Positions 7,483 to 52,060 of a stretch of DNA of 52,060 bases are shown here, piece after piece. Made by a program: the position numbers and the translations under genes. Source of the DNA: Chloroflexota bacterium (lineage in GTDB: Bacteria; Chloroflexota; Ktedonobacteria; Ktedonobacterales; JACDGC01); contig JAJYBV010000010.1 of assembly GCA_021778805.1 (NCBI GenBank), forward strand, positions 1 to 52,060, written 5' to 3'. Within the stretch, counting starts at the first letter, position 1; each line of letters begins with the position of its first letter. The notes below the pieces were generated by a model that was not told the DNA's origin, searched no databases, and saw only the letters and a program-made list of their open reading frames with translations.

Positions 7483-7675
7483 GTCCCCGGTTCCCTTCCT
7501 CTGCGCTATTGTGCCGGATTATCTGGGTTCTGCCACGGCCGTTGGAATTATCTCCACTCTTTTGTTTTTTGCGTACATTGAGGGATTTGCAAGGGGCAAG
7601 CCCCTTGCGCGGGGTTCCGGGGTGTCCCCGGTTCCCTTCCTCTGCGCAACTGTGCCGGATTATCTGGGTTCTGCC
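7483..7675 (+). repeat. Dispersed repeat, copy B, with a 52-bp direct repeat
   Basis: A 52-bp segment (GTCCCCGGTTCCCTTCCTCT...GGGTTCTGCC) at 7483-7534 recurs at 7624-7675 with two mismatches, a period of 141 bp. Between the copies is the family hairpin core GCAAGGGGCAAGCCCCTTGC followed by GCGGGGTTCCGGGGTGTCCCC. It is a short variant of the repeat family and has no coding content. The rest of 7246-7779 holds nothing I can name. Confidence 0.8.
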
Positions 7676-12736: not shown

Positions 12737-13936
12737 ATGGCCGGCCCCGCTTTAACATTCACAATACAGCATACTGAATCGGCGGCGCGCGCTGGGGTTA
12801 TCACTACTTCGCACGGCGCAATTGCCACACCGATGTTTATGCCGGTTGGCACCTCGGCAACTGTGAAAGCTGTTGCGCCGGATGATTTAACCACCCTTGG
12901 CGCGCAAATCATCCTAAGCAATACCTACCATTTGTTTTTACGGCCCGGCCCCCAAATTATCGCAAATTTTGGCGGATTGCATGGCTTTATGAATTGGAAA
13001 GGACCAATTTTAACCGATTCCGGCGGTTTTCAGGTCTTCAGCCTGGGGCAAATGCGCAAAATTACCGGAGACAGCGTAATTTTTCGTTCGCACCTCGACG
13101 GCGCGCGCATTGAACTAAACCCGCAGCGTGTCATGGAAATTGAAGCAATGCTTGGCGCTGATATTATTCTTCCGCTAGATGAATGCCCGCCGTTTCCTTG
13201 TGAAGAATCGGTAGCGCGCCGCGCAACCGAACGCACTCACCGCTGGGCAGAAATGGCGCTGAACGCTAAAGTTCGCAGCGATCAAGCTTTATTTGGCATT
13301 CCACAAGGAGGAATGTTTGAAGATCTGCGGCGCCAAAGCGCCGCCACCATCGGCGCACTGCCCTTTGATGGATTCAGCATCGGTGGTTTATCTGTCGGTG
13401 AACCGAAACCGGTGATGTGGAATATGCTGGAAGCAACAATCAGCGGTTTGCCCAACGCTAAGCCGCGGCACTTACTGGGAGTTGGTTCCCCCGAAGATTT
13501 AGTTGAGGGCATTGCCCGCGGTGTGGATTTATTTGACTGTGTTTTGCCAACACGCGCCGCGCGCAACGGCGGTTTATATACGCGCAGCGGCCGCATAAGC
13601 ATTCGCACTGCGCGCTGGAAGGAAGAGCGCGGCCCGGTAGAAAGCACATGTGATTGCTGGACATGCGCTCATTTCAGCGCCGGCTATTTAAATCATTTGG
13701 CGCGCGCCGAAGAATTACTTTTCTTCCGTTTAGCAAGTATTCATAACCTAAGATTTTTAATTCGTTTGGTAACTGATGCGCGCACAGCTATTGCCGCAGG
13801 CCGCTTTGCCGATTGGCGAGCAGAGTTTCACGCAGTGTATCGGCCGGCTTCTGCCGATGCCAGCGCCCAGCAGCGCGAAAAATGGCGCGCCAAACATGGC
13901 GTTAACCCAGATATGGCGCCGACTGACTCCAATTAG
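12737..13936 (+). CDS. tgt: tRNA-guanine transglycosylase (Tgt)
   Basis: Exchanges guanine-34 in the anticodons of Asp, Asn, His and Tyr tRNAs for a queuine precursor. Visible: ILTDSGGFQVFSL (catalytic Asp), ADIILPLDECPPFP, GIPQGGMFEDLR, GGLSVGEPK, DLFDCVLPTRAARNGG (nucleophile Asp and substrate loop) and the zinc site CDCWTC with a distal His in SIHNLRF. The first ATG at 12725 lies inside the Shine-Dalgarno GAGG (12727-12730) that serves ATG 12737, so the start is set at 12737 (MAGPALTF), giving 399 aa. No other queuosine gene is nearby. Confidence 0.95.
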   Translation: MAGPALTFTIQHTESAARAGVITTSHGAIATPMFMPVGTSATVKAVAPDDLTTLGAQIILSNTYHLFLRPGPQIIANFGGLHGFMNWKGPILTDSGGFQVFSLGQMRKITGDSVIFRSHLDGARIELNPQRVMEIEAMLGADIILPLDECPPFPCEESVARRATERTHRWAEMALNAKVRSDQALFGIPQGGMFEDLRRQSAATIGALPFDGFSIGGLSVGEPKPVMWNMLEATISGLPNAKPRHLLGVGSPEDLVEGIARGVDLFDCVLPTRAARNGGLYTRSGRISIRTARWKEERGPVESTCDCWTCAHFSAGYLNHLARAEELLFFRLASIHNLRFLIRLVTDARTAIAAGRFADWRAEFHAVYRPASADASAQQREKWRAKHGVNPDMAPTDSN

Positions 13937-13954
13937 TTATTGTTTATTTGTCCT

Positions 13955-14075
13955 ATAGACATGAGCATACGTAAAAGCATAGAGCCAGAGACAGCATGCC
14001 TGCTGACGATGCGGGAAGTGTCCCTCGGATTCCTCTTATTCCTTTTTTAGGCTCTGGTCTCTAAAAAGGAATGAT
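13955..14075 (+). ncRNA. Structured leader / RNA element, copy 1 (unknown family)
   Basis: Shares long identical blocks with 46772-46895: GAGCATAC, ACAGCATGCCT, CTGAC, GATTCCTCTTATTCC and TTTTTTAGGCT, in the same order. A hairpin between blocks has different sequence but keeps pairing (GGGA/TCCC here, GGGGG/CCCCC there). An outer stem pairs 13981-13990 (AGAGCCAGAG) with 14052-14062 (CTCTGGTCTCT, one bulge). ATTCCTTTTTTAG (14038-14050) can pair with CTAAAAAGGAAT (14061-14072), which is the ribosome site of the HIT gene. The outer-stem 3' strand lies largely in the loop of that hairpin. This looks like a cis-regulatory RNA. I do not recognise the class. Confidence 0.6.
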
Positions 14076-14078
14076 GTT

Positions 14079-14537
14079 ATGACTGAAATATGTTTCACTT
14101 GTTTGAATATTAGCGGCCAGCAAAGAATTTCTCCCGGGCCGTTTATTTATACCGGCCAATATTGGGTTGTGGATCATGCATATCCATCCTCACTTCTTGG
14201 TTGGCTGGTCATTTTACCGAAACGCCATATTACCGCAATGCATGAGATTACGTTCAAAGAATTTCAGGAATTAGCTGAAATCGAATACAAACTTGTACAA
14301 GTCATCCACAAAGATCCAACAATTGAAAAAAAATATTTTATGTGTTTTGCGGAAGGTGAAGGTTTTCACCATGTTCATTTTCATATGGTTCCCAAACCTT
14401 ATAACTTACCGCATGAACTAATCGGCCCGCGAGTTTTTGCGTTTTTAAATACTGAATTTCAGCCCGCAATAGCTGCGCCGGAGATCATAAAATTTTGTGA
14501 AGCATATACAAAAACATTTCAGCAGATTGATTTATAA
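14079..14537 (+). CDS. HIT-domain (histidine triad) nucleotide hydrolase
   Basis: Member of the HIT superfamily, which hydrolyses or transfers nucleoside phosphates. The active-site motif HVHFHMVP is at about residues 100-107, and the preceding GEGFHH matches the family. LLGWLVILPKRHITAMHEI is the usual upstream strand/His segment. An N-terminal CFTC pair may bind metal. 152 aa, complete. Start ATG 14079 with AAGGAA at 14066-14071. The ribosome site lies inside the structured element just upstream, so translation may be switched. Exact substrate unknown. Confidence 0.88.
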   Translation: MTEICFTCLNISGQQRISPGPFIYTGQYWVVDHAYPSSLLGWLVILPKRHITAMHEITFKEFQELAEIEYKLVQVIHKDPTIEKKYFMCFAEGEGFHHVHFHMVPKPYNLPHELIGPRVFAFLNTEFQPAIAAPEIIKFCEAYTKTFQQIDL

Positions 14538-14587
14538 TCTTTAAAAAAACGCCGCCGAATCAGCGCATTGTTGCATTGCGCCATATC

Positions 14588-15181
14588 TTACCCATGCGGC
14601 TGCATATGAAATACCACATTGCCGCCGGCGAATATCGTATCGGTAATGGTAAAAAGCTGCTCCAGCCGATGCCGCTGTTCCGGCAGACGCCGCGTTTTAA
14701 AAATATTTATTGCGGCAGTTCCACCGGGAACCAGGTGTTTAGCAACATCACGCAAAAAATCTGTGCTGAGTGTTCGGTGCGCCATAACACCGCCGGTATA
14801 CATATCGATACAAATATAATCAAACGCGGTATCGCAGGTTTTAATCCACTCGAAGGCGTCGGCGACAACAACAGTAACATTCAGCTGGCGCCGCAAGCCA
14901 AACTCGTCCAGGGCCAGCTGCGCCACTCGGGGATCTATTTCTACGGCGGTAATAGCAATGGGGCCGCAAGCTTCAATCAGCAAATGCGTAACGGCTCCGG
15001 CTCCGGCGCCTAAAATCAGCGCTTTCCACGGTTTGCGCCGTGGCGGAAGCAAAGCGTGCCAAACATCACCGGCGCGCAAATCTTCAACGGCAACCGACTG
15101 CACATAGCCGTCGGCGACTAAGGCGCGCCGCCCGTCGCTTTCGGTAACAATTAAGGTTGGTAATCGCTGTGAATCCGGCAT
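14588..15181 (-). CDS. Spermidine-synthase-like SAM-fold protein
   Basis: Rossmann-fold protein related to polyamine aminopropyltransferases and class I methyltransferases. KALILGAGAGAVTHLL is the nucleotide-binding loop; AVEIDPRVAQLA ends strand 2 with the acidic Glu; VVADAFEWI and FDYICIDMYTGGVMAHRTLS correspond to the catalytic loop region, and the LVPGGTAAINIF strand follows. At 197 aa it is shorter than true SpeE (about 280), lacking most of the N-terminal beta domain, so polyamine synthesis is doubtful. It lies 37 nt downstream of the cysteine ligase on the same strand, likely co-transcribed. Confidence 0.75.
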   Translation of the reverse strand: MPDSQRLPTLIVTESDGRRALVADGYVQSVAVEDLRAGDVWHALLPPRRKPWKALILGAGAGAVTHLLIEACGPIAITAVEIDPRVAQLALDEFGLRRQLNVTVVVADAFEWIKTCDTAFDYICIDMYTGGVMAHRTLSTDFLRDVAKHLVPGGTAAINIFKTRRLPEQRHRLEQLFTITDTIFAGGNVVFHMQPHG

Positions 15182-21540: not shown

Positions 21541-21938
21541 AAGAGCCAGGGATTCGTAAGGGGCGACAGCCCATTGCGCGGGGTTTGGGGCGCCTCCCAA
21601 AATCATCTTTTTATTTTATTTTTCCAAAGCAGTATTGTTTGCCAAGTAGCAAGGGCGACCGCAAGGGTCGCCCCTACCGGATTGCATTGCCTCATGTGTA
21701 CCGCGCGATGATTATATTAAAACAAGTGTCATATGGCGGCGCTGGTGCTACGGTGCGGCGTAGGTGGCCGGGCCGCGCTTGTGTACCGTGCAGTGTAGAT
21801 AGCCGAGTGGCGCTTGTGCTCCGGCGCGGTGTAGATAGCAGGGTGGCGCATGTGTACCGCGCGGTGTAGTTTGCCGGGTGGCGTAGGTTGCCGAGTGGCG
21901 CTTCCGCTTCGGCGCGCCGTAGGTGGCCGGGTGGCGCT
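21541..21938 (+). repeat. Dispersed repeat, copy C
   Basis: Contains all family modules in plus orientation: GGGATTCGTAAGGGGCGACAGCCC, GCGCGGGGTTTGGGGCGCC, GGGCGACCGCAAGGGTCGCCC, CTACCGGATTGCATTGCCTCATG and the GGCGC...GGTGTAG tail. The tail is amplified (see the separate tandem repeat). It lies between the ABC exporter promoter region and the toxin/immunity patch, and no protein is encoded. Confidence 0.85.
21738..21938 (+). repeat. 36-bp tandem repeat, about five units
   Basis: Units such as GGCGCTTGTGCTCCGGCGCG-GTGTAGATAGCAGGGT follow each other with period 35-36 and about 15-25% divergence, with one partial unit near 21868. Other copies of the dispersed repeat carry only one such unit, so the array arose by local amplification. 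There are no unique spacers, so this is not a CRISPR. Confidence 0.8.
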
Positions 21939-26604: not shown

Positions 26605-27031
26605 ATGGTCTTTAATATTTTCATCAGGATGAAGACCAACAGAGCAAAGTACATAGAGTGCCCCATAGTGCCTGTTGTTGAACAAACACTGCACGGCATC
26701 TCGGGTGGTGGAGGTGGGGAAACAAGCAACACAATGCATCGTGTGGTGTTCGTTTCGAGGCCACCTTGGCGCCTACACCGCTCCGAAGCACAAACGCCGA
26801 CACATATCGTTTGTTTTAGAGCATACGCCGCGCGGTTACACCTATGGCCATGCAATCCGGTAGGGGCGCCCCTTGCGGTCGTCCTTGCTGCTCGGCTGCC
26901 AATATTTCCCTTCGGAAAAATAAAAAAGAGATTTTGGGGACACCCCAAACCCCCGCGCAAGGGGCTACCGCCTCTTACGAATCCATGATTACGCTGATAT
27001 ATCTTATCCCTCTTTAATAATTAAAGATCAT
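26605..27031 (-). repeat. Dispersed repeat, copy D, between response regulator and kinase genes
   Basis: Family modules appear in reverse orientation (GAAGACCAACA, the CACCGCTCCGAAG region, CCGGTAGGGGCGCCCCTTGCGG, GGACACCCCAAACCCC, GCGCAAGGGGCTACCGCC). The ends ATGGTCTTTAA (26605-26615) and TTAAAGATCAT (27021-27031) are inverted repeats with one mismatch, like the ends of the 42.3 kb copy. The right end overlaps the last codons and TAA of the response regulator. It fills the whole 514-bp gap between the two genes of one two-component system. Confidence 0.8.
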
Positions 27032-32235: not shown

Positions 32236-32577
32236 AGTCTTTTTCTCCTTTTACCAACCCGCAATCTATACAAGATTGCCTCAATTGGTACGAAAACCAG
32301 GCAGGATGCGATATCAGAATCGGCTGCGGCGCCCCATACGTCATTGTATCTGTTATCTGCCGCGTCCTCACAAGGTAGTGTAGCCAGAGACATAGTATCA
32401 CGATTTGGGCAGTATGCGAAAGGGGTAAACCGCCCAAAAAGTATCAAATTTATCAAAATACTTCAAACCTGCCAAATTCACCGGCTTTATTGCCGGGACA
32501 TCTGTCTTTCAAACGCACCCAAAACAAGTACTGTATAGTTCATTTTATTTTAAAGAAACGCCGCACGGCACACAAAC

Positions 32578-32720
32578 CCGGGGATTCGTAAGGGGCGGTA
32601 GCCCCATGCGCGGGGCTTGGGGTGTCCCCAAAATTTATATTTTATACAATATCCCCAGAGCAATATTGGCTGCCGGTCAGTAAAGGCCACCGCAAGGGCG
32701 CGTCCCTACTGGCCTATGCC
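32578..32720 (+). repeat. Dispersed repeat, copy E (degenerate); rest of the ppdK-EEP gap
   Basis: A partial, diverged copy: GGGGATTCGTAAGGGGCGGT, CGCGGGGCTTGGGGTGTCCCC, GCAATATTGGCTGCCGG and a broken CACCGCAAGGGCGCGTCCC hairpin. Within the larger gap 32236-32902 I see no gene. The ppdK promoter must lie in 32240-32400, but no clear hexamers were found. Confidence 0.7.
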
Positions 32721-36209: not shown

Positions 36210-36530
36210 CTCGCGGTACACATGGGTAGAGGTGGGGACAAGCCACATGTTTCATCGTGTGGTGTTCGTTTTATAGCTGCCTGGCTACCTACACCGTGCG
36301 GTACACAAGCGCCGCAACATAATATTTGTTTTAAAATAACCACCTCGCAGTACACATTGAGGCCATGCAATCCGGTAGGGGCGACCCTTGCGGTCGCCCT
36401 TGCTGCCAAGCAATCAATACTGCTTTAGGAATATTGTTTAAAAATTTAAATTTTTTGGGAGGCACCCCAATCCCCGCGCAAGGGGCTGCCGACCTTACGT
36501 AACCCTGATTTTATAGCTGCGCGGCCACCA
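36210..36530 (-). repeat. Dispersed repeat, copy F; rest of the recA-pfkA gap
   Basis: Reverse-oriented modules: GGTAGAGGTGGGGACAAGCC, CATCGTGTGGTGTTCG, CCGGTAGGGGCGACCCTTGCGGTCGCCC, GGAGGCACCCCAATCCCCGCGCAAGGGGCTGCCG and a truncated CTTACGTAACCCTGATT end. From 36540 to 36840 nothing else is recognisable. Confidence 0.8.
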
Positions 36531-42281: not shown

Positions 42282-43014
42282 ATTTGGCTAATGAACTTTA
42301 ATATTTTAATCAGGATGAAGACCAACATAGTGGAGTACATTGAGTGCCCATTGTTGAACAAACACTGACCGGCTACACACGGGTGGAGGTGGGGAAACAA
42401 GCCACACGATGAATCGTGTGGTGTTCGTTTTGTGGCCATTTGGCCGCCAATACCGCTCCGAAGCCCAAGCGCCGCCCTATAGCGTTTGTTTTAGAGCATA
42501 CACCGCGCGGTACACCTGAGGCAATGCAATCCGGTAGGGGCGACCCTTGCGGTCGCCTTTGCCACTCGGCAATCACTATTGCCCTGTGAAAGATTTTCAT
42601 AAAAGAGATTTTGGGGACACCCCAAACCCCGCGCAAGGGGCTATCGCCCCTTACGAATCCCTGGTTACGCAGGTATATCTTATCCCTCTTTCATTGTTAA
42701 AGTTCATCATCGTGTGGTGTTCGTTTTGTGGCCACTTGGCCGCCAATACCGCGCCGGAGCAAAAGCATCACCCCATATCGTTTGTTTTAGAGCATACACC
42801 GCACGGTACACATGAGGCAATGCAATCCGGTAGGGGCGACCCTTGCGGTCGCCCTTGCTTTCCGGCTACCAATATTGCTTTGGGAATATTATTTAAAATA
42901 ATAATTTTTGGGGGACACCCCAAACCCCGCGCAAGGGGCATCCGCCCCTTACGAATCCCTGGTTACGCAGGTATATCTTATCCCTCTTTCATTGTTAAAG
43001 TTCATTAGCCAAAT
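42282..43014 (-). repeat. Composite dispersed repeat, copies G and H, with 20-bp perfect terminal inverted repeats
   Basis: ATTTGGCTAATGAACTTTAA at 42282-42301 is exactly mirrored at 42995-43014. Between them are two tandem family copies in reverse orientation, split near 42708 where TTAAAGTTCAT meets CATCGTGTGG. Each has GTGTGGTGTTCGTTTTGTGGCC, a CCGGTAGGGGCGACCCTTGCGGTCGCC hairpin and GGGGACACCCCAAACCCCGCGCAAGGGGC. No transposase is encoded, so it would need help from elsewhere to move. 43015-43350, before the NiCoT gene, shows no convincing gene. Confidence 0.85.
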
Positions 43015-46609: not shown

Positions 46610-46771
46610 TCTAAGCCTCCTGCGCAACAATCTAAAATAACAGCTGTCTGCGTACAAACATATGCGCCGTCGTTCCAGAAATTCGCGCGGCGTACTATAG
46701 GCGTTTATAAGCAAATAGTTTAAGCAGCTGCCACAAAAATGTTAGCTGATGTGATAACGCTTTCCCTTATG

Positions 46772-46895
46772 ATAACCTGAGCATACATAAAACATACAGC
46801 AGGATGTGCAATAAACAGCATGCCTTCTGACTTGGCTGGGGGTAACCCCCGATTCCTCTTATTCCATTTTTTAGGCTTAGGTCTCTGGGCACAAA
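46772..46895 (+). ncRNA. Structured RNA element, copy 2 (unknown family)
   Basis: Same ordered blocks as 13955-14075 (GAGCATAC, ACAGCATGCCT, CTGAC, GATTCCTCTTATTCC, TTTTTTAGGCT, GGTCTCT). The inner hairpin is GGGGG-TAA-CCCCC here. CCTGAG (46776-46781) can pair with CTTAGG (46876-46881) to close the structure, using a different 5' strand from copy 1. TATGAT just upstream (46768-46773) is a possible -10. About 285 bp separate it from the sedolisin start and no small gene is convincing between, so it may be a free RNA or a long leader. 46610-46771 shows nothing further. Confidence 0.58.
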
Positions 46896-49267: not shown

Positions 49268-49470
49268 GAAAGAGCGGGCATGTATGTCAATACTCCCAGC
49301 GCCATCGATGAATATTGCAGTTTGGATCCCACGCGACAGAAACTATCGAACCCCGTCAGGGCGGAAGCAGCAGCGGTAAGGTAGGACCTCTGAGCGCCGC
49401 GGCCAATTCAAATTTGCGTTTCATGGGTGGCGTGGGGTGTGTTGATATGGCCGGCTCTCTCTTTTTAGGG
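49268..49470 (+). ncRNA. ffs: Signal recognition particle RNA (ffs/scr)
   Basis: RNA scaffold of the bacterial SRP. The Ffh-binding domain is visible in GAACCCCGTCAGGGCGGAAG followed by CAGCAGCGGTAAG, matching the conserved GUCAGG...GGAAGCAGC core with a GGAA tetraloop. The ends AAAGAGCGGGC and GGCCGGCTCTCT pair, and CTCTCTTTTT follows as a terminator, giving about 200 nt, the long type with extra 5' domain. Boundaries are estimates. It lies just upstream of dnaX, a placement also seen in other bacteria. Confidence 0.85.
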
Positions 49471-51519: not shown

Positions 51520-51942
51520 TTACCCGCCGATAACAGCGCGCGCATTCTGCGCCAGCGCGGGTACACCGTTCTCCAGTTCCTCAAAAAAGGGATCATCGGT
51601 AAAACCGGCGCGCATGCGTTTATAGCTGCCTTCCAGCAAAATAGCCATCTTCCAAATTGCCAGCGCATGATAAAAGCGCATGGTATCAGCCGAAAAGCTT
51701 ATTTGCGCGCGCTGAGCATAATGCTGCGCCAATTCATCTCTTGTCGGAAAGCCATCCTCTTCCGTCACTCGCCAGTTATTCTCTGCGGAAAGCGCCGGCG
51801 GTGGATCTCCTTTTTGCCGCCAAAATGCCAGTAAATACCCTAAATCCGCTAACGGATCACCGATTGTTGCCATCTCCCAATCCAGCACACCAATTACCCG
51901 CGCAGGAGCTTCAGCAGCAAACATCAAATTATCAACTCACCT
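51520..51942 (-). pseudogene. APH-family phosphotransferase, 3' part only, truncated by foreign sequence
   Basis: The frame encodes the C-terminal half of an aminoglycoside-phosphotransferase-fold kinase: VDNLMF (end of the catalytic loop, normally HGDxRxDNLMF), GVLDWEMATIGDPLADLGY (Mg-binding Asp) and then the helical lobe to the natural end. Directly upstream of VDNLMF is TGA, and the HGD part is missing, replaced by sequence with no kinase similarity. The track's start at 51927 is a TTG inside the domain. Proteins of this subfamily are often fused or linked to acyl-CoA dehydrogenases. Probably inactive. Confidence 0.75.
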
Positions 51943-52060
51943 TACGCACAATCAATCGCACAGGAGGTTTTGAGAGATCGAAGTTCAGACAAACTGGATT
52001 GCAGAGCTTTGAGATAGAGCTTTGTTTTGAGAGCAAAGTGATTCAGGTGAGTCGCTTTGG
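51935..52060. mobile_element. Possible end of an inserted element at the window edge
   Basis: The break in the kinase gene coincides with ACTCACCT (51935-51942), which has an exact inverted copy AGGTGAGT at 52045-52052. AAAGCTCT-type short repeats lie between. The window stops here, so the element is not identified. Confidence 0.35.

Follow-up and report, generated by a model that had tools for sequence, protein, structure and literature searches.

Correia elements have a TA target, and ERIC/IRU sequences are intergenic inverted-repeat elements of approximately 127 bp with no known transposase in the host. Both MITEs and extragenic palindromes are known kinds of element. Correia (CREE/NEMIS) MITEs are foldable intergenic sequences of approximately 100–200 bp with terminal inverted repeats, present in more than 100 copies (PMC10969869). 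REP/BIME palindromes carry a GTAG or CGTC tag, and GTAG repeats have been reported in Chloroflexi (PMC3733652). The two matching stretches analyzed here, which lie in one window (the whole 52,060-nucleotide stretch of DNA under analysis), very probably arose by insertion of a MITE-like, non-autonomous DNA element, approximately 117 bp in size with a version of a double-hairpin module inside, and have since decayed. This element is like Correia-type MITEs in its size range, terminal inverted repeats, intergenic position and foldability, whereas its interior is a double-hairpin module common to other shells and to other families of the phylum. Its ends probably differ from the published Correia ends. 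By description it can be likened to ERIC/IRU, except that in the present case there is a second shell, for which an IS may be the partner. It shares with REP/BIME the character of high-copy extragenic stem-loops, some of them in tandem, but consists of two linked hairpins with a conserved CGGGG linker and TGT loop and bears no consistent tag. As a MITE alone the element would be ordinary; the interest lies in the conserved core found inside different inverted-repeat shells.

The earlier note had described two alignable stretches with blocks in the same order, and this was confirmed, the 15-bp block GATTCCTCTTATTCC being intact in both. The true limits of the two copies according to covariance model R1 were 13954–14063 and 46770–46887, with scores of 102.6 and 106.6 bits, respectively, which serve only to place the ends, since R1 was trained on both copies. 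The following features were located:

13954..14063, + strand: copy 1 of the MITE-like element, 110 bp (placed by R1, 102.6 bits); the tgt gene ends 17 bp upstream and a HIT-domain gene starts 16 bp downstream (Pfam)
13954..13966, + strand: left terminal inverted repeat TATAGACATGAGC of copy 1, one mismatch to TAKAGACCTGAGC
13992..14005, + strand: degenerate remnant of hairpin A, CAGCATGCCTGCTG, in copy 1 (alignment A2)
14012..14027, + strand: remnant of hairpin B, CGGGAAGTGTCCCTCG, in copy 1 (alignment A2)
14028..14042, + strand: conserved box GATTCCTCTTATTCC, then a T-run, in copy 1 (pattern search, alignment)
14051..14063, − strand: right terminal inverted repeat of copy 1, GCTCTGGTCTCTA on the + strand, one mismatch to TAKAGACCTGAGC on the − strand
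46770..46887, + strand: copy 2 of the MITE-like element, 118 bp (placed by R1, 106.6 bits), with a BNR/sortilin-like gene (− strand) on one side and a pro-kumamolisin-domain gene (+ strand) on the other (Pfam)
46838..46850, + strand: hairpin B of copy 2, GGGGGTAACCCCC (alignment, folding)
46851..46865, + strand: conserved box GATTCCTCTTATTCC of copy 2 (pattern search)

The hairpin differs between the copies just as had been noted (GGGA/TCCC versus GGGGG/CCCCC), but both copies folded no better than their own shuffles (z = −0.87 and −0.41). Neither a terminator nor a promoter was found inside the element at copy 1.

The feature is two-copy inside the window only. Allowing for up to two mismatches, the block GATTCCTCTTATTCC had 62 matches in the genome from which the window comes (G000) and the reversed pattern had one, so that the block is far more frequent than chance would allow and is not confined to two copies. 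With model R1, for which 28 copies were used, at least 85 copies were detected in this Chloroflexota genome of 3.25 Mb, a lower bound given that only 150 of the 1157 first-look candidates were scored by R1. The congener G001, the sole further representative of the genus that was searched, had 36 copies, and none was detected in four additional members of the family. The consensus derived from the copies gathered at the GATTCCTCTTATTCC places was approximately 117 bp in size (TATAGACCTGAGCATACGTAAAGCATAAAGCAGGAGGCGCAGGAGGCAGCATGCCTCCTGACGGGGCCGGGGGTGTCCCCCGATTCCTCTTATTCCTTTTTTAGGCTCAGGTCTCTA). According to a rough, ORF-based assessment, 30 of 33 copies were intergenic, and their arrangements relative to the adjoining genes (9/8/6/6) were random; the constant orientation upstream of related genes looked for as a riboswitch test was not observed. 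Among the 28 full copies, three stems paired in 79.9% of cells against 79.7% after shuffling, and no covariation was detected (score of 0.128 versus 0.126 for shuffled alignments). Many copies lacking covariation was the outcome that the earlier note had set against its own reading, and it is what was found within this genome. As a caution, decayed mobile DNA can likewise give rise to a motif that occurs two times within a window and differs by paired changes.

The ends of the copies were sharp and inverted, TA[T/G]AGACCTGAGC...GCTCAGGTCT[C/A]TA, and both were the most regular feature of the element, with 179 matches to the terminal inverted repeat (up to two mismatches) versus 42 to the reversed pattern. 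Reduced derivatives of 30–70 bp retained little besides the ends, and both ends were kept in short forms of 30 bp (L107), 70 bp (L113) and 84 bp (L114). The element has the attributes of a MITE in being short (forms of 30–119 bp, against a MITE limit of approximately 600 bp), non-coding and multi-copy (at least 85 copies), with terminal inverted repeats at its sharp ends. The flanks followed the pattern Y-TA...TA-R, with Y in 42 of 49 cases (p = 2 × 10−7) and R in 40 of 49 (p = 5 × 10−6), and a longer duplication was absent. The presumed duplication, TA, also belongs to the end used in the search, and the case for duplication therefore depends on the flank statistics and on a single aligned empty site. 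This empty site was identified by comparing locus L013 with L101 and was clean, with a single TA.

Presence or absence of the element between the congeners was observed at all three orthologous loci examined, which attests to insertion polymorphism. At the locus of copy 1 (window positions 13936–14589, from tgt to the next conserved gene), G001 had neither the element nor the HIT-domain gene and carried approximately 70 bp instead; since the HIT-domain gene is also missing, this locus does not provide a clean empty site. Extra sequence was present at the third locus. Given the random gene orientation, the present/absent loci and the lack of covariation within the family, the claim of a conserved RNA in these copies was not upheld. 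In three copies (L017, L039 and L103) another repeat either interrupts the element or adjoins it directly. This second repeat of the window's genome is several hundred base pairs long, lies within copies of the element or is fused with them (L017 1843–2213, L039 1–277, L103 1–230 and L102 2030–2164), and contains the double-hairpin core in arrays with units of approximately 85–110 bp. No signs of current activity of the element were found.

Under the preferred reading, the 13-bp terminal inverted repeats TA[T/G]AGACCTGAGC would be recognized in trans by a DDE transposase, and insertion would take place at a YTAR site with duplication of the central TA, as the flanks and the one empty site suggest. 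After insertion the copies would mutate freely and independently on each side of a stem. Inside the ends lies one version of a module that occurs elsewhere with other ends or with none. The source elements keep both hairpins paired, as covariation shows, and the fold may be needed either as DNA for propagation or as a transcribed RNA.

The module consists of hairpin A, the CGGGG linker and hairpin B (TTTGGGG-TGT-CCCCAAA) and matches the interior of the element. A model of this core, R2, built without any family-1 copy, detected it in a patchy subset of the Chloroflexota (20 of 201 genomes) and matched the centers of many family-1 copies (for example, L084, E-value = 6 × 10−13, and L007, E-value = 9 × 10−10). 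At an E-value of up to 1, neither window copy of the element was scored by R2, because both are decayed; their membership in the core group follows from R1 and from their intact siblings. Within the window, R2 matched nine places in all:

11–72 and 99–160, + strand: two copies of related modules without these ends (R2, 66.2 and 65.9 bits; 99–160 is in the training set)
42607..42668, − strand: related module without TAKAGACCTGAGC ends (R2, 62.3 bits)
42905..42966, − strand: related module (R2, 57.0 bits; in the training set)
32574..32635, + strand: related module (R2, 54.1 bits)
7575..7635, + strand: related module (R2, 46.5 bits)
26930..26992, − strand: related module (R2, 45.1 bits)
21542..21604, + strand: related module (R2, 40.6 bits)
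36451..36512, − strand: related module, the weakest (R2, 33.8 bits)

Hairpin B (CGGGGNTTGGGGTGTCCCCAA, up to two mismatches) was present in 14 of the 201 Chloroflexota genomes, with 458 matches in the window's genome, 165 in G161 and 79 in G006, whereas matches to the reversed pattern were almost nil. Hairpin A, located upstream of hairpin B, had arms that were matched but different in sequence. An unguided alignment was made of 43 copies drawn from 13 genomes; the share of paired cells was 85.5% versus 75.7% after shuffling, and both sides had changed in 76 cells versus 26.8. The covariation score was 0.329 versus 0.166 for shuffled alignments (sd 0.012, reached in 0 of 500) and 0.177 for the best slid control, a comparison that is not tree-aware, so that related sequences can exceed shuffles without structure. 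Analysis of one arm pair per genome gave the same picture, but the arms had been picked for pairing, and such a choice of the best stem inflates pairing; for this reason the 43-copy unguided alignment is the test relied on. These data indicate that the hairpins keep pairing through compensatory changes across 13 genomes and form a conserved foldable structure, which does not imply action as RNA. The earlier interpretation is partly supported: paired changes matter in the internal double hairpin across the 13 Chloroflexota genomes and not within the genome, and it is from one source family to another that pairing is conserved, whereas the two window copies are decayed and show no such conservation. 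The other outcome that the earlier note had set against its reading, an Rfam match, did not occur: comparison of the repeat family and of the core with Rfam gave nothing above the gathering score, and relaxing the threshold brought up just sub-threshold matches, to GC-rich microRNA among others. In the literature searched, the core strings retrieved no paper, and no core was found in viral contigs or plasmids at the sensitivity used.

These results raise the question of why one folded interior occurs in unrelated small transposons of one phylum; the fold may aid DNA movement, or an RNA may serve the element or the adjoining genes. Tentatively, the core may be a phylum-wide fold-keeping module with hundreds of copies in some genomes, a structured unit of RNA or DNA that is portable and was spread independently by different transposases in unrelated shells, which we regard as possible though short of an even chance. 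Somewhat more doubtful is a reading that concerns the core only and is compatible with the MITE-like shell, according to which the core represents an RNA family, selfish or structural in kind, whose members are transcribed and fold; such a family would have been amplified and taken up between transposon ends of different types, and the MITE shell would be secondary. The strong covariation across 13 genomes is in line with this, as are the conservation of the TGT loop and the CGGGG linker, the occurrence of two shells in one genome (G001) and of a third inverted-repeat type in G019 (L082), and the many copies without these ends; however, mutation by template switching can keep DNA palindromes matched without RNA selection, and copies of the module lie on both strands. 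That the pairing of the core hairpins across genomes came about through quasi-palindrome correction, not selection, is unlikely: within one genome, G168, the arms of hairpin A are perfectly matched yet differ, as correction would have it, but it cannot keep the conserved TGT loop and CGGGG linker.

Still less probable is that the copies are palindromes of the REP/BIME type, mobilized by a RAYT (Y1) transposase. The copies are small, intergenic, palindromic, numerous and partly tandem, and Y1 genes are present in the window's genome and in many relatives; on the other hand, two genomes with a high copy number of the core have no RAYT (the Y1_Tnp match was absent in G161, with 165 core matches, and in G168, with 23, both assemblies being fragmented), the GTAG/CGTC tag at the hairpin end was missing in most copies (alignment A3, by inspection), and the element has inverted-repeat ends. 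As a candidate driver RAYT was rejected, the copy number of the core showing no association with RAYT transposases. That the copies are riboswitches or other functional cis-regulatory RNAs located in two 5′ gene leaders, as the position of copy 1 at 16 bp upstream of a start codon and the visible stems might suggest, is highly improbable, since at least 85 copies are randomly oriented to genes and are present at some orthologous loci and absent at others (the tgt locus of the congener has no element), and furthermore covariation within the family is absent and folding is no better than that of shuffles.

With regard to the transposase acting on the MITE-like element, none with TAKAGACCTGAGC ends was found among the DDE_3 genes of the window's genome or the DDE_Tnp_1 genes of this genome and G001, in an assembly that breaks at IS copies, which is why the label "MITE-like" is used. 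An IS630-type partner was rejected, PF13358 (DDE_3) being absent from the window's genome, and so was an IS4-type partner, all four PF01609 (DDE_Tnp_1) genes having other ends. A general search for inverted repeats around the cores of G161, G019 and G000 gave results mostly not above the shuffled control, and therefore G001 is the one genome for which additional shells are put forward, with L082 as a tentative case. The core-like sequence of L082 in G019 (1501–1612) is flanked on both sides by the 12-bp sequence CATGATCTTTCA as perfect inverted repeats, which makes a third type of end.

In G001, seven cores were located between TAGAGACCTGAGC ends (shell 1) and ten between TAGGACTTTCGCTT ends (second shell), the control with reversed words for the second shell giving two. 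Three contigs of the window's genome break off inside an IS whose end, TAGGACTTTCGCTTACG, is of the second-shell type. This multi-copy IS (end TAGGACTTTCGCTTACGAATGGGACAAGACAGG) terminates the contigs at L108 2049–2171, L043 1–113 and L047 1–126. The last 36 residues of its product weakly resemble the C-termini of IS701-type transposases, a link of 36 residues with E-values of 0.3–9 that bears on the second shell and not on the TAGAGACCTGAGC shell. One IS701-type relative (NCBIfam NF049921), in Spirosoma, has the ends TAGGACTTACGCA, which the second-shell ends TAGGACTTTCGCTT resemble, whereas the TAGAGACCTGAGC ends of the element itself differ from those of the IS701-like IS. By these sequence comparisons, the second shell has a plausible driver, and the TAGAGACCTGAGC shell has none yet.

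Two further observations concern the end of the window. A bacterial small SRP RNA (RF00169, 50 bits) was detected at positions 49320–49416. The terminal positions 51934–52060 carry CTCACCTTACGCA, which matches the terminus of a transposon with a PF01609 gene in G001 (L164 950–2151, with inverted ends CTCACCTTACGCA); the contig of the window thus seems to break off inside a PF01609 transposon.
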